Shown here: positions 3,508 to 22,817 of the stretch, piece by piece | Position numbering within the stretch: position 1 is the stretch's first letter | How the letters are laid out: every line of letters begins with the position of its first letter | Origin: Actinomycetota bacterium | Lineage (GTDB): Bacteria > Actinomycetota > Actinomycetes > Actinomycetales > Kineosporiaceae | NCBI GenBank assembly: GCA_016213575.1 | Contig: JACRAB010000282.1 | Coordinates: 1-33,926 of the forward strand | Direction of reading: 5' to 3' | Length of the DNA: 33,926 nucleotides | The notes under the pieces: generated by a model | What the model saw: only the letters and a program-made list of their open reading frames with translations | Databases searched by the model: none | Told to the model about the DNA's origin: nothing | Made by a program: the position numbers and the translations under genes

Positions 3508-3563
3508 AACCGTGCCCTGACCTGCGACGACGTGCCTGCACTGTTCGTCACTGATCGGCGGCG

Positions 3564-4195: not shown

Positions 4196-4216
4196 GGTGC
4201 TCCTTCGGTGGGCGGG

Positions 4217-4396
4217 TCAGAGGAGGCCGGCGAGGCGGCCGGCGGCGCCACCGGCGGCGGCCGCGGCGCCGATGGCGAGCCACTTCGTGCGTTCGAGGGC
4301 GCGGATCCGGGTCTCGTGGTCGCCCTGCTGGGTGAGGGCGATCTCGAGCTTCGTCTTGATCTCGATGAGCAGGTCGCGGATCGACTCTTCGGTCAT
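4217..4396 (-). CDS. Small XhlA/holin-like membrane protein
   Basis: MTEESIRDLLIEIKTKLEIALTQQGDHETRIRALERTKWLAIGAAAAAGGAAGRLAGLL: coiled-coil N-terminus and one C-terminal TM; ATGA overlap with the upstream gene. Confidence 0.6.
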   Translation of the reverse strand: MTEESIRDLLIEIKTKLEIALTQQGDHETRIRALERTKWLAIGAAAAAGGAAGRLAGLL

Positions 4397-4923
4397 CAGG
4401 ACACCCGCGTGTAGACCATGTACGAGGCGGAGTTGACGATCGCGGACTCGGCGGCGGCGGTCTCGGTGTTCTGCGCCCAGCGCCACCGGAAGGTGCCGCC
4501 CGTGGCGGACTCGACCCAGCCCCACTCGCGGATCATCGAGTCGGACGACGCGGACGCCATCGTGTAGTCGATGTCGGTCGCGGTGCCGTGGAACCCGAAC
4601 CGGCCGTTCGCGTCGTCGCGAGCCACCACGCCGCCGCTGGTCGTCGCTGCGGGACCGAGCGCCCACTTGCCGCCGGTCATGTCGACGGGGCCGTCCCAGT
4701 CGCTCTTGAAGTCGGCGGTGGCGGTGGCCTTGGCAGCGACGATGACGTCGACGACGTACCGGGCGCCCGGGACCATCGTGAAGAACAGGGCGTCGTCGTT
4801 CTGGATCGTGGCCGAGTCGGTGACGGTCTCGGCGGCGCCCTTGAAGACGTAGGCGGGGATGCCGATGGAGACGCCGGGCACGAAGTCCCCGGCGTCGACC
4901 TTGCCGCCTGCTGCGAGTGTCAT
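4396..4923 (-). CDS. Phage structural/tail-associated hypothetical protein
   Basis: 175-aa ORF between minor tail and lysis genes, ATGA overlaps on both sides. Confidence 0.6.
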   Translation of the reverse strand: MTLAAGGKVDAGDFVPGVSIGIPAYVFKGAAETVTDSATIQNDDALFFTMVPGARYVVDVIVAAKATATADFKSDWDGPVDMTGGKWALGPAATTSGGVVARDDANGRFGFHGTATDIDYTMASASSDSMIREWGWVESATGGTFRWRWAQNTETAAAESAIVNSASYMVYTRVS

Positions 4924-7070: not shown

Positions 7071-8296
7071 GTGGCCAGCCGGATCTTGAGGCCGCCGCGC
7101 TTGCGGGACTCCTCCTCGAGGAGCGCGACGAGGAACGCGCCGGCGCCGCCGGTCGACCCGTCGGCGACGAGCCGCATCGTGCCGCCCTGCCCGGACGCCG
7201 TCCCGCTCGAGCTCGTCGACGAGCCCGCCGGCCGGGCGACCGTCGCGGCCGCGAGGTTCGACGCGGCCCGCCGCACGCGGGACTCCTCGTCGCCCAGGCC
7301 AAGGCCGAGGCCCTGACCGAAGTAGCCGCCGATCTGCCGGGCGACCTTCGACGGCGAGTTGATGCCGAGGGCGGACCGGATCGGGCCGGGGACGGTGTTC
7401 GCGATGAACGACCGGACCTTGCCCACGAGCCACCCCGTGAGCCCGGAGATGCCGTTCCACAGGCCCTGCACGATGTTCCGGCCCGCCGAGCTCAGCATCG
7501 TCTTGGCGCCGGACAGGGCGTTGCGGACGGCCTTGGGGATGCCCTTGAACTTCCGCTGGATGGTGTCGATGTGGCGGGTCACGAAGCGGACGGCGAGCCC
7601 GATCGGGCCGGTGATGATGGCGAGGAGCAGCGGCCAGCTCCGCTTGAGCCAGCCCCACACCGCGGACGCCGCGGCGAGCACGCCCCGGAACGCGCCCTGC
7701 ACGATCCGCCGGAACGTCTCGGACTTCTTGTAGGCGATGACGACCGCGGCCACCAGGGCGACGACGGCGACGATGACGATCCCGATCGGGTTCGCGGTCA
7801 TCGCCGCGTTGAGTAGCCACTGCGCGGCCGTCATCGCGCCGGTGGCGACGGTGCCGGCGACCATCGCGACCTTCTGCCCGGCCGTGGCGATGGTGGCGCG
7901 TGCGGACGCGATGGACAGGCCGTTCGTCGAGGACACGACGGCGGCCATCGGGACGAGGAAGTTCGCGAACCCGGACGCGAGGTCACCGACCCCGGTCCCG
8001 ACGAGCAGCAGCTTGTCGCCGAACGACGCGCTCGCGGCCTCCCCCTGCCCCATGAACGCCTTCACGCCCTTGAGGCCGTCCTGGACGCCGGTGATGGTGT
8101 CCCGGAAGCCCATCGCCCGCTGCTCGGCGACGTCGAACCCCTCCTGCACCTTCCCGAACCCGCCCTGCAGCTTCGAGTCGCCGAGGGTCGTCACGACGCG
8201 CTTCGTCTCCGAGTCCACGATGTCGGAGAACTTCGTGACGTTCTTGATCGCCTGCCCGGCGTCAGCCAGGATCGAGATCTTGATCGGGCCGGCCAT
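7067..8296 (-). CDS. Short tape measure protein (409 aa)
   Basis: MAGPIKISILADAGQAIKNVTKFSDIVDSETKRV... hydrophobic AMTANPIGIVIVAVVALVAAVVIAYKKSETFRRIVQGAF...GPIRSALGINSPSKVARQIGGYFGQGLGLGL, typical siphophage TMP signatures. Confidence 0.9.
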   Translation of the reverse strand: MAGPIKISILADAGQAIKNVTKFSDIVDSETKRVVTTLGDSKLQGGFGKVQEGFDVAEQRAMGFRDTITGVQDGLKGVKAFMGQGEAASASFGDKLLLVGTGVGDLASGFANFLVPMAAVVSSTNGLSIASARATIATAGQKVAMVAGTVATGAMTAAQWLLNAAMTANPIGIVIVAVVALVAAVVIAYKKSETFRRIVQGAFRGVLAAASAVWGWLKRSWPLLLAIITGPIGLAVRFVTRHIDTIQRKFKGIPKAVRNALSGAKTMLSSAGRNIVQGLWNGISGLTGWLVGKVRSFIANTVPGPIRSALGINSPSKVARQIGGYFGQGLGLGLGDEESRVRRAASNLAAATVARPAGSSTSSSGTASGQGGTMRLVADGSTGGAGAFLVALLEEESRKRGGLKIRLAT

Positions 8297-8299
8297 CGG

Positions 8300-8716
8300 T
8301 CAGCCCCGCAGCCGGTCGGCCGCGTCGAGCAGCGCCGCCCGCTGCCCGATCGTCAGCTGCATGTACTGCTCGACGGTGAACGACAGCCGGCACGCGGTCA
8401 CGAAGTCCGCGTACTGCCGGTCCCGCTCGGCGACCGCGTCCTCGTCGTCCTCGTCGGGCTCGTCGTCGCCCTTGAACCGGGCGACGACGTCCTCGAGCGG
8501 CAGCAGCATCACGTTCCGGTAGGCGTCCCCTGAGTGCATGCCGCCGCGCTTCTCCAGGACGAACAGCAGCGCACGCATGAACATCGTGCCGTCGTTCGCG
8601 AGCGAGTCGAGGCGCTCGCGGAAGGTCTGCCGGATATCGATCTGCTCGAAGCCGGTGATGCTCTTCGAGAGCACGTCCGCGTCGATGAGCTCGGGCGTCT
8701 CGGTCGTCTCGCTCAC
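8300..8716 (-). CDS. Tail assembly chaperone-like protein
   Basis: GTG start 8716, VSETTETPELIDADVLSKSITGFEQIDIRQTF...; position directly upstream of TMP, acidic DDEPDEDDEDAVAE. Confidence 0.65.
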   Translation of the reverse strand: MSETTETPELIDADVLSKSITGFEQIDIRQTFRERLDSLANDGTMFMRALLFVLEKRGGMHSGDAYRNVMLLPLEDVVARFKGDDEPDEDDEDAVAERDRQYADFVTACRLSFTVEQYMQLTIGQRAALLDAADRLRG

Positions 8717-9102
8717 TGCAGTCCCACCTTCGCGATGGCCTCGTCGAGGCCGTGCTCCAACATCTCGACGGCCCTCGGGGCGAGGGCCGCGTCTGCGCGC
8801 TGCATGAACAGTGCCGGGGCGATCCCGCGGTTCGGCCACCCGTAGTTGATGGCGCCGGCGTAGGGCGTCCGGGCCCGCCCGGCGATCACGATCGCCTTCG
8901 CCTTCGCCTTGTTGCCCCGCACGGTGGCCGCCAGGCGCCCGGACCGCTTCGGCGCGAACCCGGACGCGAGCCGGGCGCCCTGGTCGGCAATCTCGGCCAT
9001 GACGTCCTTCAGGTCGGCGGCCTCGACGCCGAACCGCTGCAGCGCGGTCAGCGTCTGGTTGAGGCCCTCGACCTTCCCGTGGATGCCGGCCGCGCTGCCC
9101 AC
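8713..9102 (-). CDS. HK97 gp10-like head-tail/neck protein
   Basis: GLNQTLTALQRFGVEAADLKDVMAEIADQGARLASGFAPKRSGRLAATVRGNK...YAGAINYGWPNRGIAPALFMQRA. Confidence 0.8.
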   Translation of the reverse strand: MGSAAGIHGKVEGLNQTLTALQRFGVEAADLKDVMAEIADQGARLASGFAPKRSGRLAATVRGNKAKAKAIVIAGRARTPYAGAINYGWPNRGIAPALFMQRADAALAPRAVEMLEHGLDEAIAKVGLQ

Positions 9103-9106
9103 GCCG

Positions 9107-9451
9107 TCAGCCCAGCGGGACCTGGACGAGCGCGCACGTGACGGTCGCCGTGACGGAGTGCTGCACGGTGATGAGCCCCGTCACCGGGTCCGCCATCGTC
9201 GACAGCAGCGGGCCGATCATCCGGTCCCCGGTCGTCGCCGGCACGACGACGGTCGGGTTCGTCGCGGACGACCCGGCCGGCGTCTTCCCTGCGTCGACGA
9301 GGGTGACCGTGTCCGCGGCCGCGTTGCCGTTCTTCACCTGGAGGAACAGCAGCGACCCGACGACGGGCGCGATGGTGTCGGACGCCGCGACGGCGCCGTA
9401 GGCCGGGGCGAGCCCAGCTCGGGACATGGTCTGCGGGTTGAGGAGTGCCAT
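9107..9451 (-). CDS. Phage structural hypothetical protein (114 aa)
   Basis: MALLNPQTMSRAGLAPAYGAVAASDTIAPVVGSLLFLQVKNGNAAADTVTLVDAG...; in the tail/neck operon. Confidence 0.65.
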   Translation of the reverse strand: MALLNPQTMSRAGLAPAYGAVAASDTIAPVVGSLLFLQVKNGNAAADTVTLVDAGKTPAGSSATNPTVVVPATTGDRMIGPLLSTMADPVTGLITVQHSVTATVTCALVQVPLG

Positions 9452-9464
9452 CGGTGCTCGCCTC

Positions 9465-9893
9465 TCAGGAGATCGTGCGGGTCGGCTTGGCGGTGCAGAC
9501 CCACTCGAACTCGGACTGGAACACCTTCGTCGTCGACGGGTCGGCGTCGCCGCCGATGAAGTCGCCGTCCGGCTCCATGACGACGACGTTCCCGGAGAAC
9601 TTGGGCTGCGTCGGCGACGCGACGCCGGTCCCGGGGCGGCCGTTCGGCCACAGCTCGTAGGCCACCGTCTGGCCGGCCTGCGACCACGCGTAGAACCACA
9701 GCGCCGCAGCACCGTCGTCCTGCTTCACGTTCATGACGAGGGTGTACTTGCGGGTGCCACCGTTGGCCGCGTCGAGGAACGACACGAAGTCGCTGTCCGT
9801 CGCCGCCGACTTCACGCGGGCCTTGTTGACCGCCCCGCTGTAGTCGGTGCCGCCGATGCGCAGCACGAGAGACCGGGTGCCGTACTCGGCCAT
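9465..9893 (-). CDS. Major tail (tube) protein candidate
   Basis: MAEYGTRSLVLRIGGTDYSGAVNKARVKSAATDSDFVSFLDAANGGTRKYTLVMN...KFSGNVVVMEPDGDFIGGDADPSTTKVFQSEFEWVCTAKPTR; size, position and composition. Confidence 0.65.
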   Translation of the reverse strand: MAEYGTRSLVLRIGGTDYSGAVNKARVKSAATDSDFVSFLDAANGGTRKYTLVMNVKQDDGAAALWFYAWSQAGQTVAYELWPNGRPGTGVASPTQPKFSGNVVVMEPDGDFIGGDADPSTTKVFQSEFEWVCTAKPTRTIS

Positions 9894-10267
9894 CAGGAAT
9901 CGACCTCCAAGGTCAGGGTGAGGATCAGGGCGTACAGCGATCCCGGGGCGACGTCTCCCGCGGGCAACTCGGCCGGCTCGACGGTGACGCCGTCCGGGTG
10001 GAACGGGCCGGTCGTCACCGCGTCGATCAGCGCGACGGGCAGGGTGCGGATCTGCTCGGCGGCCCGGGCCGCGTCGCTGCCCAGGACGAGGACGGCCACG
10101 AAGGTGCAGTCGCAGGTCGTGACCCTCGACCCGGGGGCCACCCGGGCGATGTTCACCCAGCCGTCACCCGCCCGTGGCGACGTCGCCGGCAGGGTGCGGA
10201 CGGCGCCGCCCGTCACGGCCGTCAGGGCCGCCGCGAGGTCGACCTGTGTCTGCGTGATGCTGGCCAT
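9893..10267 (-). CDS. Tail terminator/completion-like protein
   Basis: 124-aa ORF between adaptor and tail tube; ATGA overlaps both sides. Confidence 0.55.
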   Translation of the reverse strand: MASITQTQVDLAAALTAVTGGAVRTLPATSPRAGDGWVNIARVAPGSRVTTCDCTFVAVLVLGSDAARAAEQIRTLPVALIDAVTTGPFHPDGVTVEPAELPAGDVAPGSLYALILTLTLEVDS

Positions 10268-10845
10268 CAGCCGACCACCATCCGCAGGTACGGGCCCTCG
10301 AGTCGGGAGATCTCCGGATCCTTCGTCGGGACCCGGGTCGACGTCGCGCCGCCCTCGAAGCTGGTGAACGACGCGACGGGCACGGCCCGGGCCGCGAGGT
10401 TGCGGGCGACCCGCCGGCACAGGGCCTCGCGCAGGTCGTGCCCGTAGTCGTCGACCCGGCACCGCCGGCGCTGCGCGGCCCGCTCGGCGTCCAGGGCCTG
10501 CTGGATCTCCGGGCCGGTCCACGACACGTCGCCCAGGTACGCCTGGACGTCGGCGAGCGTGACGACCGACAGGCCGGCGGCGAGCACGTCGAAGACGTCG
10601 ACGGCGACGCCGGCGTTGGCCCCGGTGAAGGTGGCGACCGCGACGTACCGGCCGACCTGCGCCGGGGTGTAGTCCAGCTGGTAGCGGCCGGTCTCGGGGT
10701 TCGTCAGCGTCAGGGACTCTCCGGTGCTCACGCCGTCGCGGGTCATCGCGAGGGCGTGCGCGCCGGCGTTCGCGGGCAGCCCGTCGGCGTCGCACACCTC
10801 GACGGTGAGGGGGACGACGCCGCCCAGGACGTACTGGTCAGCCAC
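10267..10845 (-). CDS. Head-tail adaptor with N-terminal Ig-like domain
   Basis: N-terminus LTVEVCDADGLPANAGAHALAMTRDG...PETGRYQLDYTPAQVGRYVAVATFTGAN (beta-sandwich-like) followed by VVTLADVQAYLGDVSWTGPEIQQALDAERAAQRRRCR (gp6-like adaptor). Confidence 0.6.
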   Translation of the reverse strand: MADQYVLGGVVPLTVEVCDADGLPANAGAHALAMTRDGVSTGESLTLTNPETGRYQLDYTPAQVGRYVAVATFTGANAGVAVDVFDVLAAGLSVVTLADVQAYLGDVSWTGPEIQQALDAERAAQRRRCRVDDYGHDLREALCRRVARNLAARAVPVASFTSFEGGATSTRVPTKDPEISRLEGPYLRMVVG

Positions 10846-11731
10846 GGTCGGCCCTCCTGACGCGCTCGCGGCGGGCGCCCACCCGCACGTGCTCGACGCC
10901 GGTCCCGACAGCCGCAGCCGTCGCCCGGGCGCCGACCTGAACGGTCACGGCGCGCTCGCCGAGCGCCGGCCCGCCGAGCTCGCGGGAGGCAACGGTCACC
11001 CGGGCGTAGGTGCCGGGCGGGCCGCCGGCGAGCAGCTCGACGACGAGGGTGTCGGTGAGGCCGCCGGCGTCGTCGAGGGTCCGGGTGCGGGACAGGACGA
11101 CGACGAGCCCGTCGGCCAGGCCCACGACGTCGGTCTGCGTCCTCGAGGCGGCCAGCGCCGCCGTCACGCCGTCGGTCAGCCCGGCGGCGTCGGTGGCCGG
11201 TCGCACCCAGCCGGCGGCCGGGCTCGTCGTGTCCGAGGTAACGGCCGGGTCGGTCAGGGCCCGGGCGTAGGCGAGCACCGCGGCCGCGGCGTCGACGAGC
11301 CCGGCCGGGTCGTCGAGGGTGAGCAGCTTGCCCAGCTGCGTGGCGAGCGCGTCGGCCAGCCCGGCAGCGTCGTCCAGCGTCCGTGCCGCGGCCAGGGCGG
11401 CGCTCACGGCGTCGGTCAGGCCGCTCGGGTCGTCCAGCGTCCGCGAGGCCGCCACAGCGACGCTCAGCGCGTCGACGAGCCCCGCCGGGTCGTCGAGGGT
11501 CCGGCCGTACCCGGTCGACGAGGCGAGCGCGTCGACGAGGCCGGCGGCGTCGTCCAGGTCGACGGTGATGTCCGGCGGCGGCGGGCCGCCCGGGTCCTCG
11601 GCCGGGACGATCCAGGACCCGGGCGGGGTGAACCGCCGACGGTAGGGCGTGACGTAGGTCCGGAAGTCGAACCGGCCGTTGGAGGTGTCCCGGACGTACC
11701 TCGGCGGCGGGACCTGGACGGGCCTGGCCAC
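10838..11731 (-). CDS. Repeat-containing phage structural protein
   Basis: GTG start at 11731 (VARPVQVPPPRYVRDTSNGRFDFRTYVTPYRRRFTPPGSWIVPAEDPGGPP); nine 20-aa repeats R-T-L-D-D-x-A-G-L-x-D-A-L... Confidence 0.75.
   Translation of the reverse strand: MARPVQVPPPRYVRDTSNGRFDFRTYVTPYRRRFTPPGSWIVPAEDPGGPPPPDITVDLDDAAGLVDALASSTGYGRTLDDPAGLVDALSVAVAASRTLDDPSGLTDAVSAALAAARTLDDAAGLADALATQLGKLLTLDDPAGLVDAAAAVLAYARALTDPAVTSDTTSPAAGWVRPATDAAGLTDGVTAALAASRTQTDVVGLADGLVVVLSRTRTLDDAGGLTDTLVVELLAGGPPGTYARVTVASRELGGPALGERAVTVQVGARATAAAVGTGVEHVRVGARRERVRRADRG
11034..11573 (-). repeat. In-frame tandem array: 9 copies x 60 bp (20 aa)
   Basis: Equivalent GTCGTC/GTCGG-type repeat positions at 11069, 11129, 11189, 11249, 11309, 11369, 11429, 11489, 11549 (exactly 60 bp apart); consensus RTLDDxAGLxDALxxxLAxx. 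Confidence 0.9.
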
Positions 11732-12186
11732 TACTCGTCCCAGACGACGTAGGAGACGAAGGTCCCGAGGGTGGCGCCGGTGGCGACCGTGTTGACGATG
11801 GCCAGGCCGGCGGTCGCGCTCGCCGGCACGATCAGCGGCTCGTCGTAGAACGTCCAGAAGGTCTGGCCGCCGGCGGTCGTGGTCATCGTCGTCTCGCGGA
11901 ACGCGCCGGTGCCGAGCGTCGGGTTCACCGACCACGCACTGTCGAGCGTGCCGAGCGCGGTCGGGTCGCCGGCGTCGTAGGGGTTCCCGGCGGCCGTCGT
12001 GCTCGAGGTGCCGACAGCGGTCGTGCGGATGAGCTGGAAGGCCGGCGCGGTCGTCGGTGCGGTCTTGACGCCCAGGCCGATCTCCAAGATCTTCAGCCGC
12101 TCGCTGGTGCCGCCCCGCAGCTGCCACATGATCGTGTTGGCTGCGTTGACGCCGGCCTTGGAGTTGCTCGCCGAGTAGCGGCCCAC
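11731..12186 (-). CDS. Phage structural hypothetical protein (decoration-like)
   Basis: MGRYSASNSKAGVNAANTIMWQLRGGTSERLKILEIGLGVKTAPTTAPAFQLIRT...; located just after the capsid region. Confidence 0.6.
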   Translation of the reverse strand: MGRYSASNSKAGVNAANTIMWQLRGGTSERLKILEIGLGVKTAPTTAPAFQLIRTTAVGTSSTTAAGNPYDAGDPTALGTLDSAWSVNPTLGTGAFRETTMTTTAGGQTFWTFYDEPLIVPASATAGLAIVNTVATGATLGTFVSYVVWDE

Positions 12187-12187
12187 G

Positions 12188-12712
12188 TCAGGCCCCCAGC
12201 GCCTTGTGGTTCCACGTCACGACGAGCGAGTCGGACGCCGTCTTGTTGATGACGGACCCGAACACGGCCCGGGCCGCGGTGTTACCGGCAGTGCTCGTGG
12301 CGTTCGTCCCGGAGTCGTTCACGATGACGATCTCGTTGATCGTCGCCGAGGTCGCCACGCCGGCGCCCCACGTCGAGCGGTAGACGGCGTTCACGCCGAG
12401 CCCGGCGCCCAGGTTCGCGGTCTGCGGGTAGGTCGCGTCGAACGCGACGTTGCTGCCCGTGAGGTACGTGACCAGCGCCGCGCCGGCACCCGACTTCGCC
12501 GCCGCCGTCGAGCCGGTGCCCAGCTTCATGCCGGTCATCGCCGTCGGTGCCGCCGGCGACGCCGGGGCGATCGCGGCGATCATCTTCTGCGCGTAGTACA
12601 GGTCGCCGGCGTCGGTGATGAGGTTGTGGAACTCGACGAGCTCGAGCACCTGGCCGTCCTCGTCGAGCAGGACAGCCGTGCCGTACCCCTCGAGGTAGAC
12701 GCGGTCGCGCAT
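12188..12712 (-). CDS. Phage structural hypothetical protein
   Basis: MRDRVYLEGYGTAVLLDEDGQVLELVEFHNLITDAGDLYYAQKMIAAIAP...INEIVIVNDSG; 174 aa. Confidence 0.6.
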   Translation of the reverse strand: MRDRVYLEGYGTAVLLDEDGQVLELVEFHNLITDAGDLYYAQKMIAAIAPASPAAPTAMTGMKLGTGSTAAAKSGAGAALVTYLTGSNVAFDATYPQTANLGAGLGVNAVYRSTWGAGVATSATINEIVIVNDSGTNATSTAGNTAARAVFGSVINKTASDSLVVTWNHKALGA

Positions 12713-12714
12713 CG

Positions 12715-12921
12715 TCAGGCCTCGTCCCGGGGCCCGTTGACGGCGTCCATGTAGGCCGCGTCGGCGGCGGCCAGCTCCATCTCGCGCTGGGCGCGCGCGA
12801 CGTGGACGGCGTCGACGGCGGCGGCGAGCCGGGCGTCCGCCTCGTCGCGGGCGGTGTTGCGTGCGACGAGCGCAGCGGAGACGCGCTCGGCGTAGGTCTC
12901 GGGTGCCTTCTTGGCGGCCAT
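12715..12921 (-). CDS. Small hypothetical helical protein
   Basis: MAAKKAPETYAERVSAALVARNTARDEADARLAAAVDAVHVARAQREMELAAADAAYMDAVNGPRDEA, 68 aa. Confidence 0.55.
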   Translation of the reverse strand: MAAKKAPETYAERVSAALVARNTARDEADARLAAAVDAVHVARAQREMELAAADAAYMDAVNGPRDEA

Positions 12922-12953
12922 GCCTGTCCTTCCGGTCTGAGGGTCGGGTCCGG

Positions 12954-12991
12954 CCCCGCCCGCCGCGTGTCGGGGCACGCGGCGGGCGGGG
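12954..12991. terminator. Strong hairpin immediately after the capsid-encoding ORF
   Basis: CCCCGCCCGCCGCGTG-tcgggg-CACGCGGCGGGCGGGG, perfect 16-bp stem, 6-nt loop, 9 nt downstream of the ORF end at 13001. Confidence 0.65.
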
Positions 12992-13000
12992 AGCTGCGGA

Positions 13001-15958
13001 TCAGACCGGGTCGTAGATGACCTCGCGGGCGAACGTGACGTCGGTGCAGGCGAAGGCCTTGTAGCCCCAGACGCCGATCTCGACGGTGGCGACCTTGATC
13101 GCGTCCATCGTCAGCTTCTGCGGGGCGGACGCCCAGCCGCACATGACCTCGCGGTCGAACAGCCACGAGGACGCCGCGACCGAGCCGGACGCGGCCAGCG
13201 CCCAGGCCGGGCGGGCCTTGAGGCCGCCGACGTTGATCGCCTCGTAGAACGCCGTCGACTCACCCGTGGCGTTCTGCGGCGCGATGATCGGGAAGAGCTT
13301 GCGGCCGTTGCTGTCCTTCGCCGCGGCGAGCGCCTTGTAGAGGTCGACCTGGACGAAGAAGTCCCGCATCCGGTTGCCGCCCCGGATGTACTGGAGCGAG
13401 GCGAGCGCCGAGGTGATGGCGGCCTCGAGGGCGGCGTCGACGACGGCGATGCCGAGGTTGATGTCCGTGATCGTGCCGGCGATCGCGGCGATCTGCGCCG
13501 CGGCGTAGGACTCCAGGCCCTCGTAGTAGGCCCGCATGATCTGCCGCCACAGGATCGTGTCCAGCTGCGGGTTCCCGCCCTGGTCCCAGACCTCACGGTT
13601 GATGATCGTCTTCCCGGACAGCGGGGTCGGGGTGATCGTCTGCGAGGTCGTGGTGAGCGCGCCCGTGCCGGTCGGCTCGATGCCCTCGGTGTGGTCGCCG
13701 ACGAGCCCGGACGACGTGCCGAACTTGGGCAGGACGAACGGCGTGTTGTCGCTGAGCGTGCCCTTGTTGATCGTGTCCCAGATCGGGTAGAGGAACTCGG
13801 CCTGGTCGACGTACATGTCGGGCCGCTGCCGGTTCGGGTTGAGGGTGGCGGCGTTGGCCACGGTCACCGCGAACTGCTCGTCCATGAAGGTCTGGATGCG
13901 GCCGGCGGCCTCGCCGTCGCCCTTGCCCAGGCCGTTGATCAGGTCGCTGCTGAAGCACTGCTGGCCGCGCCCACCGTCGAACCGGTAGAGCGGCTGCTCG
14001 ACGACGGTGAGGGTGCCGCCCGGGACGCGGCCGGCGGGGATGACCTCGCGGCCGGTCGGGGCGAGCGCGGCGAAGCCCTCGCGCAGCGCGGTGGCGATGG
14101 TCTCGCCGAGGCCGGGCGCCGGCTGCACCTGGACGGTGCTCGTGTTCGGGGCGGTGAAGGTCTGGCTCGGCGCGCACGGCGTGCCCGCCGCGTGGACCTG
14201 GCCGCAGGACGTGCACTCCATGTCGGGCCTTTCTGCGGTGAGAGCGACGCCCGACACCCGGGCGTCGTCGAACGAGGGGACTGCGGTGAGCGACGCCTCG
14301 CGCCAGGCCGCGGACGAGACGTCGACGACGCCGTCGTCGGCCAGGACGAGGCCGTCGTCCTGGAAGTCGACGCCGACGCTGAAGCCGTCCAGGACGCCGT
14401 CCTCGGCCAGGGCCAGCGCGGCGTCACCGTCGGGGCCGCGGGCGATCCGGAACGTGGCGACCATGCCGGCCGGCGTCTCGGTGGCCTTCACGGCGACGCC
14501 GAGCGCTTTCGTGTGGTCGTGGTCGCGGAGCAGCTTGACCCGGCCGACGTCGGAGTACTTCAGGGAGCCCTTGGCGAACCGGAAGCGCCGGCCGCCCTTC
14601 ACGGAGGACGCCGCGCCGTAGGGGACGACGAGCCCGGTGACGGTCCGCTGGCCGCCGTCGACGGCGAAGGCGGCACCGGCTGGCGCCTCGAAGGTGAGGC
14701 CGGTCTCGCGGGCGAACGTCACGGACGCCGGCACGGACTGCTGGGCGGACTGGTCCACGGGCTGCTCCTGCGGCTGGGCGGGCGGCGCCGGCGGGGCAGC
14801 CGGCTTGGGCTTGGCGCGCTGCGGCTGCTCCTCGCGCCGCTGGACCTCGGCGAGGTCGTACACGCCCAGCTCGGTGGCGGCCTTGTAGGTGGCCATCCGG
14901 TCGGCCTCGCTGGAGCGGGTGAAGCCGCCGAAGTCGAGCCGCACCCGGGTGCCGCGCGGCGTGACGTCGCCCATGCTGAGCCGGTCCTGGATGGCCGTGA
15001 CGAACGGGCCGAGCGTGAAGTCCTGCAGGCTCATGCGCCGGTCGACGGCGTTCGCGTAGGTCCGGGACGTCGTGCTCACGCCCAGGTCCTCGGGGTCGAT
15101 GCCGGTCAGCCGAGCGATCTCCAGCACGGCGTAGTCCCGGGCCTCGGCCAGCTGCATGTCCTTCGGGGCCATGACGGTGGCCTGGTGGTACTCCAGGCTG
15201 TCCGGGACGTAGCCGGTGACGCGAGCGATCCGCGCGGCCTGCCAGTCGTCGAGCATCTTCTGGACCTCGTCGGTGTCGCCCGGGTCGGCGCCCTCCCGCG
15301 ACGTGAACCACCCGATCATGCCGGGCGCGTCGGCGTACCGGGACGCCGCGGCGTCGAGCGTGAGGTAGGTCCGGATCGCGCGGGCGCCGGCGACGAGCAG
15401 CGGATCGGACGGCGCGTCGAACCGGATGAGCTGGGCGTCGGGTACGTGCTCCCAGGCGTTGCCCTGGACGGAGCCGTCGGGGCGGACGTAGACGCGCTGG
15501 TCACCGCGGACGTCGACGGTCGTCGCGTCGAGCCGGCGCACCCGGACCGGGTACCCGTCCCAGCCGAGCTCGAGGACCCTCCACCATGCGTAGCCCTCGA
15601 ACAGCATGTCCTCGACGGTCCGGGTCATCGTCACCGAGCGCGGGACGTCCTGCTCGGGCTGGTCGAACAGGGCCCTGGTCCGACGCTCATTGCTCGGCGT
15701 GAGGATGTACGCCGGCAGCGCGCCGATCGTCCCGCAGATCAGGTCGCGGGCCCGCTTGACCGCTGGCACCTGCATGGCCGCCTCGCGGCGGATGCGCGGG
15801 ACGACGGCCGAGGTGCCGAGCGCCCGCCAGTCTGGCAGCCCGAACAGCTCCGGGCCGATGCTCGCCTGGTCGACGACGAACCGGCCGGCGGGCACGTCGA
15901 CGGCGCTCGCCTGCTCGGCCACCGCCGAGACGAACCGCCACCGGTCCAGCCACCCCAC
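13001..15958 (-). CDS. Triple-fusion head protein: portal + HK97-type (S78) prohead protease + major capsid protein, 985 aa
   Basis: Uninterrupted ORF. Portal: RARDLICGTIGALPAYI...RTVEDMLFEGYAWWRVLELGWDGYPV...ARLTGIDPEDLGV. Linker: QPQRAKPKPAAPPAPPAQPQEQPVDQSAQQ. Protease: KLLRDHDHTKALGVAV...DGVLDGFSVGVDF...WREASLTAVPSFDDA. Capsid: PLYRFDGGRGQQCFSSDLINGL...YVDQAEFLYPIWDTINKGTL...YEGLESYAAAQIA...GGNRMRDFFVQVDLYKALAAAKDSNGRKLFP. Confidence 0.9.
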   Translation of the reverse strand: MGWLDRWRFVSAVAEQASAVDVPAGRFVVDQASIGPELFGLPDWRALGTSAVVPRIRREAAMQVPAVKRARDLICGTIGALPAYILTPSNERRTRALFDQPEQDVPRSVTMTRTVEDMLFEGYAWWRVLELGWDGYPVRVRRLDATTVDVRGDQRVYVRPDGSVQGNAWEHVPDAQLIRFDAPSDPLLVAGARAIRTYLTLDAAASRYADAPGMIGWFTSREGADPGDTDEVQKMLDDWQAARIARVTGYVPDSLEYHQATVMAPKDMQLAEARDYAVLEIARLTGIDPEDLGVSTTSRTYANAVDRRMSLQDFTLGPFVTAIQDRLSMGDVTPRGTRVRLDFGGFTRSSEADRMATYKAATELGVYDLAEVQRREEQPQRAKPKPAAPPAPPAQPQEQPVDQSAQQSVPASVTFARETGLTFEAPAGAAFAVDGGQRTVTGLVVPYGAASSVKGGRRFRFAKGSLKYSDVGRVKLLRDHDHTKALGVAVKATETPAGMVATFRIARGPDGDAALALAEDGVLDGFSVGVDFQDDGLVLADDGVVDVSSAAWREASLTAVPSFDDARVSGVALTAERPDMECTSCGQVHAAGTPCAPSQTFTAPNTSTVQVQPAPGLGETIATALREGFAALAPTGREVIPAGRVPGGTLTVVEQPLYRFDGGRGQQCFSSDLINGLGKGDGEAAGRIQTFMDEQFAVTVANAATLNPNRQRPDMYVDQAEFLYPIWDTINKGTLSDNTPFVLPKFGTSSGLVGDHTEGIEPTGTGALTTTSQTITPTPLSGKTIINREVWDQGGNPQLDTILWRQIMRAYYEGLESYAAAQIAAIAGTITDINLGIAVVDAALEAAITSALASLQYIRGGNRMRDFFVQVDLYKALAAAKDSNGRKLFPIIAPQNATGESTAFYEAINVGGLKARPAWALAASGSVAASSWLFDREVMCGWASAPQKLTMDAIKVATVEIGVWGYKAFACTDVTFAREVIYDPV

Positions 15959-16022
15959 GCGCTCATGGTACGGCCCGACCTTGTCGGATCCCTACAAGCC
16001 GACACGCCGACCGTTGGCAGAT

Positions 16023-17846
16023 TTACACAGCCGAAGGCAGCAGGATGCGCTGTGGGCCCCGGCGAGCCACCCGCGCCGACCGCGCCGCCCAGACCACGGC
16101 CTTCACGGCGTCCGCCCGGCCGGTCGAGCGCATGCGGGGACCGTCCGCGCCCGGGGTCGTGCGCAGACCGAGCACCTGCTCCGTGAGGAAGTCCCCGCCG
16201 TCATGCCGGACCGCGTCGTCCCGCAGCAGCCCGGACAGCTCGGCCACCGACGACCGCACGGGCCCGGTCTCCGGCGTCGCTCGCCGCGCCCACACCGGGT
16301 CCTCGGCCAGCGACGCCCCCACCACCGGCCGCCGGCGACACCGGTACCCGGCCACCAGGGCGGCCGCCTCCGGCGCGTCCAGGGCGTCGGCCACCGACAC
16401 CACGGCCCGCTCCCCGACCCTCCACGCCCGGGCGACGGCTACGCCCTCACCCGGCCAGCCCTCCACCGCGACGGCGTCCGGAGGCCGCGCCGGCGGGACG
16501 ACCGCGAGGGCCCGCCAGTCCTGCTCGTCGACCACCGGGGAACCCGCCAGTGCCAGCACCGGCCGCAGCTGCCACCGGTTCAGGTACTGCGCCTCGAACC
16601 CCGCCATCGGGTCCAGGTCGTCGGCCTCCGGGTCGACCTCGCCAGCGAGCGCGGCCGCGTACTTCGTGGCGATCATCCGGCCGCGAGCCTCCGTCCAGTG
16701 CGGCGACGCGGCCCGCCACGTCTCCGGGTCGCCCGCGTCCGCGCCCGGCGCAGCGGCCCACAGCAGCAGCAGCGTGTCCGGGTCGGCGCCGGACAGGGCG
16801 GCGGAGATCCGGCGGCGCATCAGCGACGTCGCCTGCCGGTGCGCCGTGCTCGTGAGGTGCAGCTGCGGGCTCGGCCGCTCGAGCGTCGCCGGCTCCATGC
16901 CCTCATCGACCGCGGCGGGGTCGACGCCCCAGCCCTCATCGACCATGCCGAGCGACACGTCGTAGCCGTAGACCGAGTGCATGGCCCGGGCCAGCCACCG
17001 ATCGCCGTTGGGGGTCTCCAGGGCCTCCTTCCCGTTTCCCTTGGTCACCGTCCACCCCGCGACGTCCTCGGCCCAGCGCCACGCGGCCCGCTGGATCTCC
17101 CGGACGATCGCGACGTCCTTGCCGCAGTGCATGACCAGCTGCGGCTCACCGAACAGCGCGGCCCCGTGCTCGAGGCGCCACAGCGCCACGCCCCGCAGAC
17201 GCACCGACTTCCCCGCCCGCCGCGGCGCCGACTCGACGACGACCCGCCACACCAGCCGGCCCGCCTCGTCGTGCTCGAGCTGCCGCGTGATCGCGAGCCG
17301 CTGCCACCACCGCAGCGTGATCCGCTGCGTCGACTCGATCCACGCGCACGCCTGCTCGCCGTAGGACCCCGTGGCGGACGGGTGCGGGCGCGTCATCGCC
17401 AGGGGCGGAGCAGCATCCCCGTAAGGGTCCAGGACGCCCCGGAGCCACCTGGACGACTTCAGGGCGTCCCGGTCCCAGACGAGGCCATCCGGGACGACCA
17501 CGGCCCCGTCAGGCCGACCGGAGAGAGAGACGGGACGAGCCGGGGGCTGCCCGTCGGGGCCCTGGCGGGGAAGAACGCCGGCTGCGCGGAGTGCGTCGGC
17601 TGCGGCCCGTTCCTGGACTGCGGCTTGTGCGGATGCGTTGCTGCAGCGGCGGTGTTCGTGTCGCCAGTTGGTCGGCTCCCAGGTGAGTTCGGGGTAGGCG
17701 GCGCGGCTCTTGATGTGGCCGATGACCCAGGTGTCGGTGGGTTCGACGGTGACGCCGCATCGTGCGCAGGGTGTGGGCAGGTAGCCCGCCATGTGTCGGC
17801 GGGCTTCCTGTACGGCGCGGCCGGACCACGCCTTCACCTTGGCCAT
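16023..17846 (-). CDS. HNH endonuclease - large terminase fusion, 607 aa
   Basis: N-terminus PCARCGVTVEPTDTWVIGHIKSRAAYPELTWEPTNWRHEHRRCSNASAQ (CxxC ... H ... N ... HxxC HNH). C-terminal 500 aa: VVVESAPRRAGKSVRLRG (Walker A-like), DVSLGMVDEGWG (Walker B), nuclease end DGGDFLTEQVLGLRTT...GRADAVKAVVWAA. Confidence 0.9.
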   Translation of the reverse strand: MAKVKAWSGRAVQEARRHMAGYLPTPCARCGVTVEPTDTWVIGHIKSRAAYPELTWEPTNWRHEHRRCSNASAQAAVQERAAADALRAAGVLPRQGPDGQPPARPVSLSGRPDGAVVVPDGLVWDRDALKSSRWLRGVLDPYGDAAPPLAMTRPHPSATGSYGEQACAWIESTQRITLRWWQRLAITRQLEHDEAGRLVWRVVVESAPRRAGKSVRLRGVALWRLEHGAALFGEPQLVMHCGKDVAIVREIQRAAWRWAEDVAGWTVTKGNGKEALETPNGDRWLARAMHSVYGYDVSLGMVDEGWGVDPAAVDEGMEPATLERPSPQLHLTSTAHRQATSLMRRRISAALSGADPDTLLLLWAAAPGADAGDPETWRAASPHWTEARGRMIATKYAAALAGEVDPEADDLDPMAGFEAQYLNRWQLRPVLALAGSPVVDEQDWRALAVVPPARPPDAVAVEGWPGEGVAVARAWRVGERAVVSVADALDAPEAAALVAGYRCRRRPVVGASLAEDPVWARRATPETGPVRSSVAELSGLLRDDAVRHDGGDFLTEQVLGLRTTPGADGPRMRSTGRADAVKAVVWAARSARVARRGPQRILLPSAV

Positions 17847-17852
17847 GCGTGG

Positions 17853-18068
17853 TCAGCCGAGGATGAGGCCGAGGGTGATCCCTGCGCCGAGGATGAAGCC
17901 GGCGATGAGGCCTGCGAGGGCGAGGGTGGCGTGTGTGGTGCGGGTCGGGGGTGTGGTGATGAACCCGTGGTGGTTCTGGTCTGCGTCGGGGTGGGTGGCT
18001 GCGTGTGCGCGCTTGGCGGGCCGGTTGTTGTCGACGACGGCGCGGCAGTAGGTGCACGTGGTGCTCAT
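17853..18068 (-). CDS. Small C2H2 zinc-finger-like protein with C-terminal transmembrane segment
   Basis: MSTTCTYCRAVVDNNRPAKRAHAATHPDADQNHHG (C-x2-C-x13-H-x3-H) then LALAGLIAGFILGAGITLGLILG. Confidence 0.65.
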   Translation of the reverse strand: MSTTCTYCRAVVDNNRPAKRAHAATHPDADQNHHGFITTPPTRTTHATLALAGLIAGFILGAGITLGLILG

Positions 18069-18490
18069 CGGGAAGCCTCCTGCGTCTCGGTGGTGCGGGT
18101 GATGGCCCTCGGGGGCCGGCGGAACACGCCTGGGAGTGCGGCGACGAGCCGGGCGTCCTGCGGGCCCTCGATGGCGGCGGGGACGTCGACTTCGCCGTCG
18201 GCGACGCGGCGGATGAGCTCGCGCCACTCCTCCGGGGTGTCGGCGAGGTGCCGGATCCGGTCGACGCCGTCGAGGCGGCGAGCGCGGAGCGTCTTGACCT
18301 CGGCGATGATGTCGGCCGGTGCGACGAACGACTGTCTGCGGGCGAGCTGCTTCACGGCCTCGAGCGCGTCGGCCAGGCGGACGTCGACGAGGATCCCTTG
18401 CCACAGCGCCGGGGTGTGCTCGTCGAAGGCCTGCGCCGGCGCGATGCCAGCGATGGTTCGGCAGAGGCGCACGGTCTCGTCGTGGTTCAC
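18065..18490 (-). CDS. Phage early/replication-associated hypothetical protein
   Basis: GTG start 18490, VNHDETVRLCRTIAGIAPAQAFDEHTPALWQGILVDVRLADALEAVKQLARRQSFVAPADIIAEVKTLRARRLD; GTGA/ATGA overlaps with neighbours. Confidence 0.6.
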   Translation of the reverse strand: MNHDETVRLCRTIAGIAPAQAFDEHTPALWQGILVDVRLADALEAVKQLARRQSFVAPADIIAEVKTLRARRLDGVDRIRHLADTPEEWRELIRRVADGEVDVPAAIEGPQDARLVAALPGVFRRPPRAITRTTETQEASR

Positions 18491-19287
18491 GACCGCCTCC
18501 CATCGAATCGGGCAGCGTGCTGCTCCCACGCCGTGAACATCGCCTTCCGGACCGCCTCTCGGCCGGAGTAGGACGCCTGGACTTCGCCGAGGAACGGGTC
18601 GATGACCCGGGCGCGCTTGGCGCCGGCGATCTGGACGGCGCGCAGGATCACCGGGAGCTCGATGTTGGGGTCGTCGCGGAGGAGACGCTTCACGTTCGCG
18701 CCGATCGCGCCGCGCATCGACTTCGTGGGGATCCCGCCGCCGTCCTTGAGGGCGTCGACGTAGGCGGCGACGAGCATCCCAGCGTGGTCCTGCGGGCCGG
18801 CCGGGGCGATGCCGAGGTCGAGCTCCTCCGCGCCATCCGCGCCGGTCGGCGCGGGATCTATATCTCCCCTATCTCTCCTATCCTTCCTAGGGCGCGCCAA
18901 CCGTGTCCCGTTTCCGGGGCGCCCGTGTCCCGTTTCGGGGGCGCCCGTGTCCCGTTCCTTGGATCCCGACGCGCCAGATATGGCGCGTGCCTGGTCGTTG
19001 AGCAACGTCTCCCAGACGTTCGTCTGGCCGATGCGTCGCCGGGTGATCCACCCGGCCGCGACGAGCTCGGAGAGCGCCCGACTCACGCTGCGCTCGGACA
19101 TGTCGAGGTCCGCCGCGAGCTTGCCCCGAGAGGGCATCGCGCTGCCGTCCTGGCCCCTCCCGGCGTACTTGTCGAGCCGGATCCACACCCGCACGGCGTT
19201 CGAGGACAGACGCTTGTCCGTCACGAGGTCGTCCGGGACCTGAGCGAACCACCTCTTGCGGCTGATCTTCCCCTCCTGAGTGCTCAT
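18487..19287 (-). CDS. Phage replication initiator / replisome organizer-like protein with N-terminal winged HTH
   Basis: MSTQEGKISRKRWFAQVPDDLVTDKRLSSNAVRVWIRLDKYAGRGQDGSAMPSRGKLAADLDMSERSVSRALSELVAAGWITRRRIGQTNVW; contains iterons. Confidence 0.7.
   Translation of the reverse strand: MSTQEGKISRKRWFAQVPDDLVTDKRLSSNAVRVWIRLDKYAGRGQDGSAMPSRGKLAADLDMSERSVSRALSELVAAGWITRRRIGQTNVWETLLNDQARAISGASGSKERDTGAPETGHGRPGNGTRLARPRKDRRDRGDIDPAPTGADGAEELDLGIAPAGPQDHAGMLVAAYVDALKDGGGIPTKSMRGAIGANVKRLLRDDPNIELPVILRAVQIAGAKRARVIDPFLGEVQASYSGREAVRKAMFTAWEQHAARFDGRRS
18902..18957. repeat. 22-bp iterons (2.5 copies), candidate replication origin
   Basis: CGTGTCCCGTTTCCGGGGCGCC (18902), CGTGTCCCGTTTCGGGGGCGCC (18924), CGTGTCCCGTTC (18946); spacing exactly 22 bp. 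Confidence 0.75.
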
Positions 19288-19829
19288 TGGACGGCCTCGA
19301 GGTCGTCGGCGGCGTCCTCCAGCGCGAACGCGAGCGTCCGGACGGCGGCCGGGGTGGTGAGGTCGATCTCCCCGCCGACGTGGAGGACGACGTCCCCGTC
19401 GGGACCCTCGTCGGGGTGGTTCTGCAAGAGGATCAGTCGGATGTCGAGGCCCTTCGCCGCGGGGGGCGCGAGCTGCACACCCTCGTGGGTCGTGGACATG
19501 TCCCACGGGGTGATGAGGTCCCCGCGGAGCTCGCCGTGGTTGCCCTCGCACCACGGCGGGCAGGCGAGCGGGACGGCGCGGGCGGTCTGCTCGGCGTGCC
19601 AGAGCGGCATGACGTGCTGGTCGGCCCAGGCGACGAACGCCCGGAGCTGCTCCCACGGGTCGAGGGCCGGGTCGTAGCCGGGCACGGTGTCGAGGGCGAC
19701 GCGGTCCTCGGCGAGCGCCCAGCGGACGGCGTGCCGCTCGACGAGGTCGATCGGGAGCCACGCGAGGCGCTCAGACTGCGCGAGCATGTGCTGCTTGTCG
19801 TCGTTCGTGGGTACGGTGTTCTCGGACAC
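19284..19829 (-). CDS. Phage hypothetical protein with PPWCEGNH motif (DUF6907-like pattern)
   Basis: MSENTVPTNDDKQHMLAQSERLAWLPIDLVERHAV...VPLACPPWCEGNHGELRGDL...VVLHVGGEIDLTTPAAVRTLAFALEDAADDLEAV. Confidence 0.6.
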   Translation of the reverse strand: MSENTVPTNDDKQHMLAQSERLAWLPIDLVERHAVRWALAEDRVALDTVPGYDPALDPWEQLRAFVAWADQHVMPLWHAEQTARAVPLACPPWCEGNHGELRGDLITPWDMSTTHEGVQLAPPAAKGLDIRLILLQNHPDEGPDGDVVLHVGGEIDLTTPAAVRTLAFALEDAADDLEAVQ

Positions 19830-19857
19830 TTCGAGCTCCTAACTCGGGGTGATCCTG

Positions 19858-19886
19858 CGACCCGGCGGGGCGAATCCGCCGGGTCG
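19858..19886 (-). terminator. Hairpin downstream of the excisionase-like gene
   Basis: CGACCCGGCGG-ggcgaat-CCGCCGGGTCG, perfect 11-bp stem, 14 nt after the 19901 gene end. Confidence 0.5.
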
Positions 19887-19900
19887 CTCGGCTTTGTGGG

Positions 19901-20107
19901 TCAGACCGCTCGGCGGTCCTGCTGGTCGAGCAGCCACTGCTCGACGTCGGCGGACCTCCAGCGGAGGTGCCGGCCGACCTTGATGGCGAGGGGGCCCTTG
20001 CTGCGGACCCGCCAGGTGTAGAGCGTCTGGACGGGGACCTGCAGGTACGCAGCGACCTCATCGATCGTCATCAGCGCGGTCTTGCCCTGTTCGTTCAGCG
20101 AACGCAT
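19901..20107 (-). CDS. Excisionase/AlpA-like helix-turn-helix DNA-binding protein
   Basis: MRSLNEQGKTALMTIDEVAAYLQVPVQTLYTWRVRSKGPLAIKVGRHLRWRSADVEQWLLDQQDRRAV (MerR/HTH_17 excisionase signature). Confidence 0.85.
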   Translation of the reverse strand: MRSLNEQGKTALMTIDEVAAYLQVPVQTLYTWRVRSKGPLAIKVGRHLRWRSADVEQWLLDQQDRRAV

Positions 20108-20113
20108 GGCTCG

Positions 20114-20142
20114 ATATTCCACCGATTGGTTGGCTCTGTCAA
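20114..20142 (-). promoter_or_regulatory. Leftward early promoter candidate (leaderless)
   Basis: Reverse strand TTGACA (20142-20137) N17 GAATAT (20119-20114); ATG begins 7 nt after the -10 (20107). Confidence 0.5.
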
Positions 20143-20173
20143 ACCTATGTTGTGTCAGCCAACAGTTCGGTGG
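20119..20173. promoter_or_regulatory. Operator region between divergent excisionase-like and repressor genes
   Basis: CCACCGAttgGTTGGCT (20119-20135) and AGCCAACagtTCGGTGG (20157-20173) form a 14/17 inverted repeat; each arm is itself a CCAnC-N5-GnTGG imperfect dyad. Confidence 0.6.
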
Positions 20174-20185
20174 CAGTGTGGACTC

Positions 20186-20809
20186 ATGCAAGACGACGAA
20201 AGCCACGACGGAGCGATAAGCGCGCTCGTCGGGCGCAACGTGAGCCTTCGCCGCAGAGCGATGGGCTTCAGTGCGTCCTACATCTCGAGCAGCGTCACCG
20301 CGTCTGGCGTCCCGTTGTCGCGGAGCGCTCTCTCGCAGGTCGAGAACGGCAAGCGTCGCGTCACCGTCGACGAGCTCGTCGCACTCGCCGGCGCGCTGCT
20401 GTGCCACCCAGCCGCACTACTTGGCCCGGAGCCGCCTTACCCCGGAACTCGGCTCGACTCCGGCGCCGCGGTCACCACGGTTACCGAGCAAGCGATGCCC
20501 ATCGGACGCACGAAGCGCAGGACGATCGGCACAGCGCACGAGTCGCCCTCGGTCGACGACGCAGCCGACCCCGACAACGAAGCGCTCGCCAGAGCGATCA
20601 CTGACGCGTGGGCCGCGTACAACGACTTGAGCGTGAGGATCGACTCCGCCATGTCCGCCATGACCCGCGCCAAGGAGGGGCCGCCCCGCAAGTACGGGCC
20701 GACGGCTGAGGAGTTCGCAGCGGAGGTCGTCCAGCTCCACTCCGAGCGCGAGGCCGTTCGGCGGCGCCTGGACGAGCTGTCGAGGCAGGGGGAGGCCGAC
20801 CGTGGCTGA
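20186..20809 (+). CDS. Phage repressor-like XRE-family HTH protein
   Basis: MQDDESHDGAISALVGRNVSLRRRAMGFSASYISSSVTASGVPLSRSALSQVENGKRRVTVDELVALAGALLCHPAALLGPEPP; divergent from the excisionase-like gene, upstream of int. Confidence 0.8.
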   Translation: MQDDESHDGAISALVGRNVSLRRRAMGFSASYISSSVTASGVPLSRSALSQVENGKRRVTVDELVALAGALLCHPAALLGPEPPYPGTRLDSGAAVTTVTEQAMPIGRTKRRTIGTAHESPSVDDAADPDNEALARAITDAWAAYNDLSVRIDSAMSAMTRAKEGPPRKYGPTAEEFAAEVVQLHSEREAVRRRLDELSRQGEADRG

Positions 20810-21893
20810 CGTCGACCGGTTGCCGTCGGGGAAGTGGCAGGCGCGGACGCGGGTCGACGGCCGGCAGCTGAAGCGGTCGTTCGCCCGGAAGGCGGATGCG
20901 CAGGCGTGGCTCGCCGAGGTCACGACGGACCGGGCCCGCGGGCAGTACGTCGACCACCGGGCCGGGCGGGTCACAGTCAGCGAGTACGCACGGTCGTGGG
21001 CGGATGCGCGGCCGCACCGTCCGTCGACGGCCCGGCGGGTCACGGGGATGCTCACGCACCACGTCGACGCGACGCCGCTCGGGGCGATGCGGCTCGGCGA
21101 CGTCCGGCCGTCCGATGTGCAGGCGTGGGCGACGGGCCGCGCCCAGGTCCTCGCGCCGGGGACGGCGCGGCTCGTCCTCGGGCTCGTCCGGTCGGTGTTC
21201 GCGAGCGCGGTCCTCGACCGGCTCATCGGGTCGACGCCCGTCGTCCGGGTCGCGCTGCCTCGAGCGGAGCGGCCCCGGGTCGTCCCGCTGTCCGTCGAGC
21301 AGGTCCGGGCGCTCGCGGCCGCGGCGCCGGCGCGGTACCGGCGGATGGTGATCGTGCAGGCCGCGCTCGGGCTGCGGATGGGCGAGCTGCGGGCGCTGCG
21401 CGTCGACGACGTCGAGCACCTGCGCCGGGTCGCGCACGTCCGGACTCAGTTCCCGAACGGGTCCCGCGAGCGCTCGGAGCCCAAGACGCCGCGCTCGCGG
21501 CGGGACATCCCGCTGCCGGCCGTCGCGGGCGAGGCGATCGCCGAGCAGCTGCGCGAGTTCGGGCCGGCGGAGGACGGGTCGATCTTCGCGAACGAGGCCG
21601 GGCGGCCGGTCCGGTCGGACCACCTGCAGCGGATGATCGCGAGCGCCGTCGTCGCGGCCGGGCTGCCGGCGGGCACGAGCTCGCACGACCTGCGGCACCA
21701 CTACGCGTCGGTGCTGCTCGCGGCGGGTGAGTCGGTGGTCGCGGTCGCGGAGCGGCTCGGGCACGAGAGCGCGACGCTCGTCCTCACGACCTACGGGCAC
21801 CTGCTGCCGGACTCGGAGGAGCGGACGCGGCGGGCTGTCGACGAGGCATGGTGTGCCCCGGATGTGCCCGCGAGCGCCGGAACCGTGCTCTGA
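20802..21893 (+). CDS. int: Tyrosine recombinase / phage integrase
   Basis: AP2-like N-terminus (SGKWQARTRVDGRQLKRSFARKADAQAWL), catalytic GLRMGELRALRVDD, SSHDLRHHYASVLLAAG, AERLGHESATLVLTTYGHL. Confidence 0.97.
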   Translation: MADVDRLPSGKWQARTRVDGRQLKRSFARKADAQAWLAEVTTDRARGQYVDHRAGRVTVSEYARSWADARPHRPSTARRVTGMLTHHVDATPLGAMRLGDVRPSDVQAWATGRAQVLAPGTARLVLGLVRSVFASAVLDRLIGSTPVVRVALPRAERPRVVPLSVEQVRALAAAAPARYRRMVIVQAALGLRMGELRALRVDDVEHLRRVAHVRTQFPNGSRERSEPKTPRSRRDIPLPAVAGEAIAEQLREFGPAEDGSIFANEAGRPVRSDHLQRMIASAVVAAGLPAGTSSHDLRHHYASVLLAAGESVVAVAERLGHESATLVLTTYGHLLPDSEERTRRAVDEAWCAPDVPASAGTVL

Positions 21894-21902
21894 CCTGCGC
21901 GT

Positions 21903-22817
21903 TCACGTGTACGCGTAGAACCCGCGGCCGCTCTTCTTGCCGAGCAGCCCGGCCTCGACCATCCGGCTCAGCAGCGGCGGCGGCGCGTAGAGCGGCTCCT
22001 TGAACTCCTCGTAGAGGGACTCGGCGATCGCCTTCGTCGTGTCGAGGCCGATGAGGTCGGTGAGCGCGAGCGGGCCCATCGGGTGCGCGCAGCCCTGGAC
22101 CATCCCGGTGTCGATGTCCTCCGCCGTCGCGTAGCCGGACTCGAGCATCCGGACCGCCGAGAGCAGGTACGGCACGAGGAGCGCGTTGACGACGAAGCCG
22201 GCCCGGTCGCGGCAGTGGATGACCTTCTTGGCGAGCACCTGCTCGGCGAAGGACTGCGTCCGCCGGACGGTCTCGCCCGAGGTGAGCAGCGACGGCACGA
22301 GCTCGACGAGCTTGAGCACGGGGACCGGGTTGAAGTAGTGCATGCCGACGACGTGCTCGGCGCGGCCGGTCGCCATCGCGACCTTCATGATCGGGATCGA
22401 GGAGGTGTTCGACGCGAGCAGCGCGTCGGGGCGCTCGACGACGGCGTCCAGGGTGCGGAAGACGGCCACCTTCGCGGCCTCGTCCTCGACGACCGCCTCG
22501 ACGACGAGGTCGCGGTCGGCGAGCGCGTCGAGCCCGACGACGACGCGCAGCCGCGAGAGCGTCTCGGCGGCGGCGTCCGCGGTGATCTTCCCGCGGGTGA
22601 CGCCGCGCTCGACGGAGGCGCTGACCCGCTTGAGGGCGCGGGCCGCGGCGGCCTCGTCCGCCTCGGCGACGACGACGTCGCAGCCCGCGGCGGCGCAGAC
22701 CTCGGCGATGCCGGAGCCCATGAGCCCGCCGCCGACGACCCCGACCCGGCGGATGTCGTCCCGGGGGTCGGGAGGGGCGGCGGACGTGGCGGCGGACGTG
22801 TCGGCGTCGACGGTCAT
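21903..22817 (-). CDS. 3-hydroxyacyl-CoA (3-hydroxybutyryl-CoA) dehydrogenase; prophage integration target
   Basis: RVGVVGGGLMGSGIAEVCAAAGCDVVVAE...LLASNTSSIPIMKVA...RAEHVVGMHYFNPVPVLKLVELVPSLLTS...DRAGFVVNALLVPYLL...GCAHPMGPLALTDLIGLDT...KKSGRGFYAYT. Confidence 0.95.
   Translation of the reverse strand: MTVDADTSAATSAAPPDPRDDIRRVGVVGGGLMGSGIAEVCAAAGCDVVVAEADEAAAARALKRVSASVERGVTRGKITADAAAETLSRLRVVVGLDALADRDLVVEAVVEDEAAKVAVFRTLDAVVERPDALLASNTSSIPIMKVAMATGRAEHVVGMHYFNPVPVLKLVELVPSLLTSGETVRRTQSFAEQVLAKKVIHCRDRAGFVVNALLVPYLLSAVRMLESGYATAEDIDTGMVQGCAHPMGPLALTDLIGLDTTKAIAESLYEEFKEPLYAPPPLLSRMVEAGLLGKKSGRGFYAYT
21909..21921. repeat. Prophage attachment core, right end (attR)
   Basis: GTACGCGTAGAAC identical to 3458-3470; lies in the last codons of the dehydrogenase gene. 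Confidence 0.9.

Follow-up and report, generated by a model that had tools for sequence, protein, structure and literature searches.

We describe a single open reading frame (ORF) in an actinobacterial prophage that carries an HK97-type portal, an S78 prohead protease and an HK97-fold capsid protein, in that order. The ORF lies at 13001-15958 on the reverse strand of the window (the whole 33,926-nucleotide stretch of DNA that was analysed, from an Actinomycetota bacterium of the family Kineosporiaceae), begins with GTG and runs for 985 amino acids without an internal stop. The same three domains share one ORF in 21 of 44 non-redundant family members, gathered from IMG/VR and GTDB genome scans and an ORF-by-domain survey; these are the window and 20 other loci, two of which run off their contigs. 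Comparison across the family suggests that the ORF is likely to be a set of nested, in-frame, 3′-coterminal head genes of 985, about 585 and 406 amino acids, probably with proteolysis acting as well. The features to which we refer are listed here by window position.

3458-21921, no strand: prophage of about 18.45 kb with the 13-bp repeat GTACGCGTAGAAC at either end (3458-3470 and 21909-21921)
20802-21893, forward: tyrosine integrase, within the prophage
16023-17846, reverse: large terminase with an HNH-like N-terminus, upstream neighbour of the fused ORF (phrog_9 and phrog_338)
13001-15958, reverse: portal-protease-capsid ORF of 985 aa, starting at a GTG whose Shine-Dalgarno site is poor (-2.5 kcal/mol)
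14831-15766, reverse: HK97-type portal domain, residues 65-376 (PF04860, phrog_12, Foldseek 3kdr and 8fql)
14756-14758, reverse: candidate internal start GTG401, with CAGGAG at 14765-14770, weak in the window and strong in most relatives
14702-14815, reverse: disordered Pro/Gln-rich linker, residues 382-419 (pLDDT below 50)
14252-14650, reverse: S78 prohead protease domain, residues 437-569 (PF04586 above cut-off, conservation in 44 of 44 members, fold)
14519-14521, reverse: protease His480, invariant in 44 of 44 members
14378-14380, reverse: protease Ser527, invariant in 44 of 44 members
14228-14233, reverse: internal Shine-Dalgarno site GAAAGG, codons 576-577
14219-14221, reverse: internal start ATG580 of the predicted 406-aa capsid precursor; start and Shine-Dalgarno site kept in 44 of 44 members
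13004-14221, reverse: predicted capsid precursor read from ATG580 (PF25209, phrog_2263, Foldseek HK97 heads)
13061-13828, reverse: HK97-fold capsid core, inside the capsid precursor

That portal, protease and capsid are fused in one ORF had been proposed in an initial annotation of this DNA, and the proposal is borne out by the open frame together with Pfam, PHROGs, AlphaFold2 and Foldseek. Phage_portal (PF04860) matches residues 65-376 (E 2e-28, 99.9 bits against a cut-off of 39.1, profile positions 1-320 of 321), Peptidase_S78 (PF04586) matches residues ~437-569 when the middle domain is scanned alone (28.1 bits against a cut-off of 21), and Phage_capsid_4 (PF25209) matches residues ~711-966 when the C-terminal part is scanned separately (32.6 bits against 27). 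The PHROGs assignments run in the order portal, head maturation protease and major head protein, in agreement with Pfam. An AlphaFold2 model of the whole chain, for which the relatives collected in this analysis served as the alignment input, is of modest confidence (mean pLDDT only 65) and has three folded regions with disordered stretches at residues 382-419 and 564-654. Foldseek matched this model to the HK97-type portals 3kdr and 8fql and to the HK97 capsids 2fte and 2ft1.

A separate model of the protease domain (mean pLDDT 88) matched herpesvirus assemblins and T4 gp21 in Foldseek, which places the invariant His480 and Ser527 on an assemblin-like fold; Asp524 is likewise invariant among members. 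Three protease motifs had originally been read from the sequence, and those of His480 and Ser527 hold throughout the family, but the glutamate of EASLTAVP does not, position 555 being occupied by Lys, Ala, Gly and other residues in other members.

The ORF belongs to a prophage whose boundaries are given by an empty site: in the same-genus genome G002 both flanks are contiguous and joined at one 13-bp GTACGCGTAGAAC, and we therefore take the prophage to be ~18.45 kb. It is also absent from that site in G001, another genome of the genus. The attachment site coincides with the 3′ end of a 3-hydroxyacyl-CoA dehydrogenase gene. A 19-bp repeat (3576 and 21851) was considered as the attachment site and rejected, since it is the 13-bp repeat that appears at the empty site. 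Tail and endolysin genes lie downstream of the fused ORF. Between the capsid and the connector and tail genes, at 10838-11731 on the reverse strand, is a repetitive protein in which a unit resembling TLDDPAGLVDAL occurs about ten times; a Pfam scan gave no match to it. The large terminase ORF (607 aa) is itself a fusion, with an HNH-endonuclease-like segment at residues 6-68 (phrog_338, E 3e-4) joined to the terminase; a strong internal start was looked for in this ORF and none was seen.

The principal evidence for nested expression is the start that follows the protease. In all 44 members an in-frame start codon (ATG in 42, GTG in two) stands directly after the protease domain with a strong, purine-rich Shine-Dalgarno site ahead of it, and the same element, a conserved internal ribosome-binding site with an in-frame start, is carried by nine of nine published protease-capsid fusion genes, the records of which annotate a single product. 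Across the 43 ORFs in which the capsid start is internal, the median Shine-Dalgarno energy, computed on the assumption of a standard anti-Shine-Dalgarno sequence, is -9.6 kcal/mol, while 350 other ATGs within these ORFs give -2.8 kcal/mol, and sites at or below -7.5 kcal/mol precede 98% of capsid starts against 6% of other ATGs (Mann-Whitney p 4e-24 for the energies, a descriptive value given that the members are related). Redrawing synonymous codons with the protein kept weakens the capsid-start site (combined p 1e-8, descriptive for the same reason).

Codon usage in the window points the same way. The site reads GCA GAA AGG CCC GAC ATG, and its GAA is the only one among the 46 glutamate codons of the ORF (the other 45 are GAG), while its AGG is one of three in an ORF where 69 of 72 arginine codons are CGN. 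The residues that flank the capsid start vary freely among members, and it is therefore the start rather than a protein motif that is conserved. In L040 the element appears as TGA GAAAGG CTCACCTG ATG; a stop comes shortly before the start, and this ATG opens a capsid gene of its own. Taken together these signals lend strong comparative support to internal starts as the route of expression, one of two suggested in the initial annotation. A zinc-knuckle-like motif with the spacing C-x2-C-x4-H-x4-C lies right after the capsid methionine in six of the 44 members, scattered on the tree (the window, L035, L037, L038, L040 and L047); it reads CTSCGQVHAAGTPC in the window (14174-14215, reverse strand) and CQICGSHDHTAQAC in L035.

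A second internal start may lie at the portal-protease junction, which is where split relatives begin their protease-capsid gene. Of the 21 fused ORFs, 18 keep a start codon there whose Shine-Dalgarno site scores -6.5 or stronger (combined p 9e-17, again descriptive, the members being related). A 21-row alignment proved too diverse for a pattern scan, and clade alignments were used instead. GTG401 of the window is not significant taken alone (p 0.12), and three members (L034, L035 and L037) have no good junction start; the middle product may therefore not be general.

We accordingly picture head expression as follows. The weak GTG at 15958 would yield the 985-aa portal-protease-capsid protein in small amounts, the junction start (GTG401 in the window) may yield a protease-capsid protein of about 585 aa, and the strong GAAAGG-N6-ATG580 would yield the 406-aa capsid precursor in the large numbers that a shell takes. 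The longer products would carry the protease into the procapsid, where it should shorten the capsid protein at its N-terminus and probably cleave the linkers as well. As the frame has no stop after the portal, any portal made would start out joined to protease and capsid, and the protease, flanked by its disordered linkers, probably releases it. Which proteins are made and in what proportions, how they are cleaved and what becomes of the full-length chain are what we infer from comparative sequence data. The initial annotation was right to raise the stoichiometry of a three-way fusion as a problem, which nested starts would remove; cleavage alone would produce portal and capsid in equal numbers.

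The full-length protein might also be a working part in its own right, that is, a portal subunit with tethered protease and capsid whose ring seeds the shell covalently at the portal vertex and brings the maturation enzyme, some chains staying joined and the bulk of the shell coming from the internal start. We regard this as a tentative extension that is probably wrong; if true, it would help to guarantee one portal and some protease per head. For HK97, current thinking has assembly nucleated by the portal, with a domain of the capsid protein acting as scaffold (PMC10275583).

It is plausible that the fused protein cleaves itself, and the invariant His480 and Ser527, the assemblin-like fold and the disordered linkers predicted on either side of the protease are all consistent with this. 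That self-cleavage is the whole explanation, with the S78 protease cutting the full-length product into three and the surplus portal discarded, is unlikely, because portal and capsid would then come in equal numbers and because the Shine-Dalgarno site and start after the protease, conserved in all members whether split or fused, would be left unexplained. We give slightly less credence still to an internal promoter from which a shorter, separate mRNA would use the real internal start, with no initiation on the long transcript. Such a promoter would give the same capsid product and has a precedent in UL26.5 of herpesviruses, but the conserved signal that we found is a ribosome-binding site. Nested translation starts remain our preferred reading.

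An accidental joining of separate genes by sequencing error or prophage decay, which the fragmented host assembly (566 contigs, 88.6% complete) might suggest, is highly improbable here and effectively refuted for the family as a whole, in which the 20 other fused loci include named isolate genomes and environmental virus contigs and the domains are all intact, with the catalytic His and Ser invariant. Recurring in so many non-redundant loci, the fusion is neither chance nor sequencing error, and it characterises a group of viruses, not a single prophage. Fused members include Amycolatopsis roodepoortensis, Labedaea rhizosphaerae and genome G758; the capsid precursor is predicted to begin MTTAEQQ in the first (strain DSM 46661) and MTAPVTE in the second (DSM 45361), and, among the phages, at M160 of Maggie gp7 and M166 of PaoPu gp5. 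The other 23 members are split at one junction, 22 of them into a separate portal gene followed by protease-capsid; L040 (48% identity over portal-protease, 61% over capsid) is the only one of the 44 in which the capsid gene stands apart, after a portal-protease gene. On a portal and protease tree one well-supported clade of ten members is wholly fused, and the fused and split states require at least six changes, as expected if the downstream starts would work in either state, so that stops between domains can come and go. In L066 (3289-3291), L075 (685-687) and L081 (2708-2710) portal and protease-capsid share a frame with a stop between them (TAG, TGA and TGA, respectively), and a single point change or stop readthrough would yield the three-way fusion.

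Several other long frames were considered as three-way fusions and rejected: a 1018-aa frame in G440 reads as portal-MuF, the long portal ORFs of G254, G269 and G488 end in different C-terminal regions, and none of the portal, protease and capsid models matches a 1068-aa frame in G075. Another capsid ORF (L004; L030 at 6554-7750 in the same-genus genome G001) is an open frame of 399 aa with 39% identity to residues 648-982, and the 20 kb that was read contains no portal or protease of the fused-ORF family. BFVD lists portal-like proteins of 884-1201 aa, some of which may be unrecognised family members.

The logic of a protease gene with an abundant nested, in-frame, 3′-coterminal partner is that of lambda C/Nu3 and herpesvirus UL26/UL26.5. 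In those systems the nested product is the scaffold, whereas in the window it would be the major capsid protein, with the portal added in front. HK97 shares the three folds and the order of their genes, and its capsid core too is preceded by an N-terminal extension, but its portal, protease gp4 and capsid gp5 are three separate genes. Portal-MuF fusions (Microbacterium phage clusters EA and EB, PMC7302621; also G440) resemble the window ORF in joining the portal to another head protein, but that frame holds neither protease nor capsid.

The closest comparison is with small actinobacteriophages, for which a "protease-scaffold-capsid fusion" has been described (PMC7302621, PMC5513430) in clusters EE, AN, AX, FE, CW and DM and in Rhodococcus phage RRH1. 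These phages share with the window the gene order, the joining of protease to capsid, small siphophage-type genomes, related portal and protease domains and the internal capsid start. They differ in that the portal is a separate gene, nine of nine annotated small phages having the portal apart and protease and capsid together, while the window ORF carries the portal in frame with the other two. Like that group, the window joins protease to capsid behind the portal, here with the portal fused as well, and its head module belongs by ancestry with theirs. Small actinobacterial siphophages were the right place to look for precedents, as had been suggested, although the published relatives there fuse protease and capsid only.

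The three-way portal-protease-capsid fusion is absent from the annotated phages examined. No record in INPHARED or PLSDB matched P0001 over 80%, and none in INPHARED matched the Labedaea protein over 80%. The literature on head-gene fusions and internal starts yielded neither a three-way fusion nor an internal capsid start, in a search that covered few subscription papers and does not prove priority. PMC7302621 does not mention an internal capsid start, nor do the phage records compared annotate one. Nested starts would offer a simple way for proteins needed in 12 and in several hundred copies to be encoded in one frame. They also suggest that genes annotated in small actinobacteriophages as "major capsid and protease fusion proteins" give one further product missing from the annotation, the free capsid precursor, which bears on how heads are built in the smallest tailed phages.
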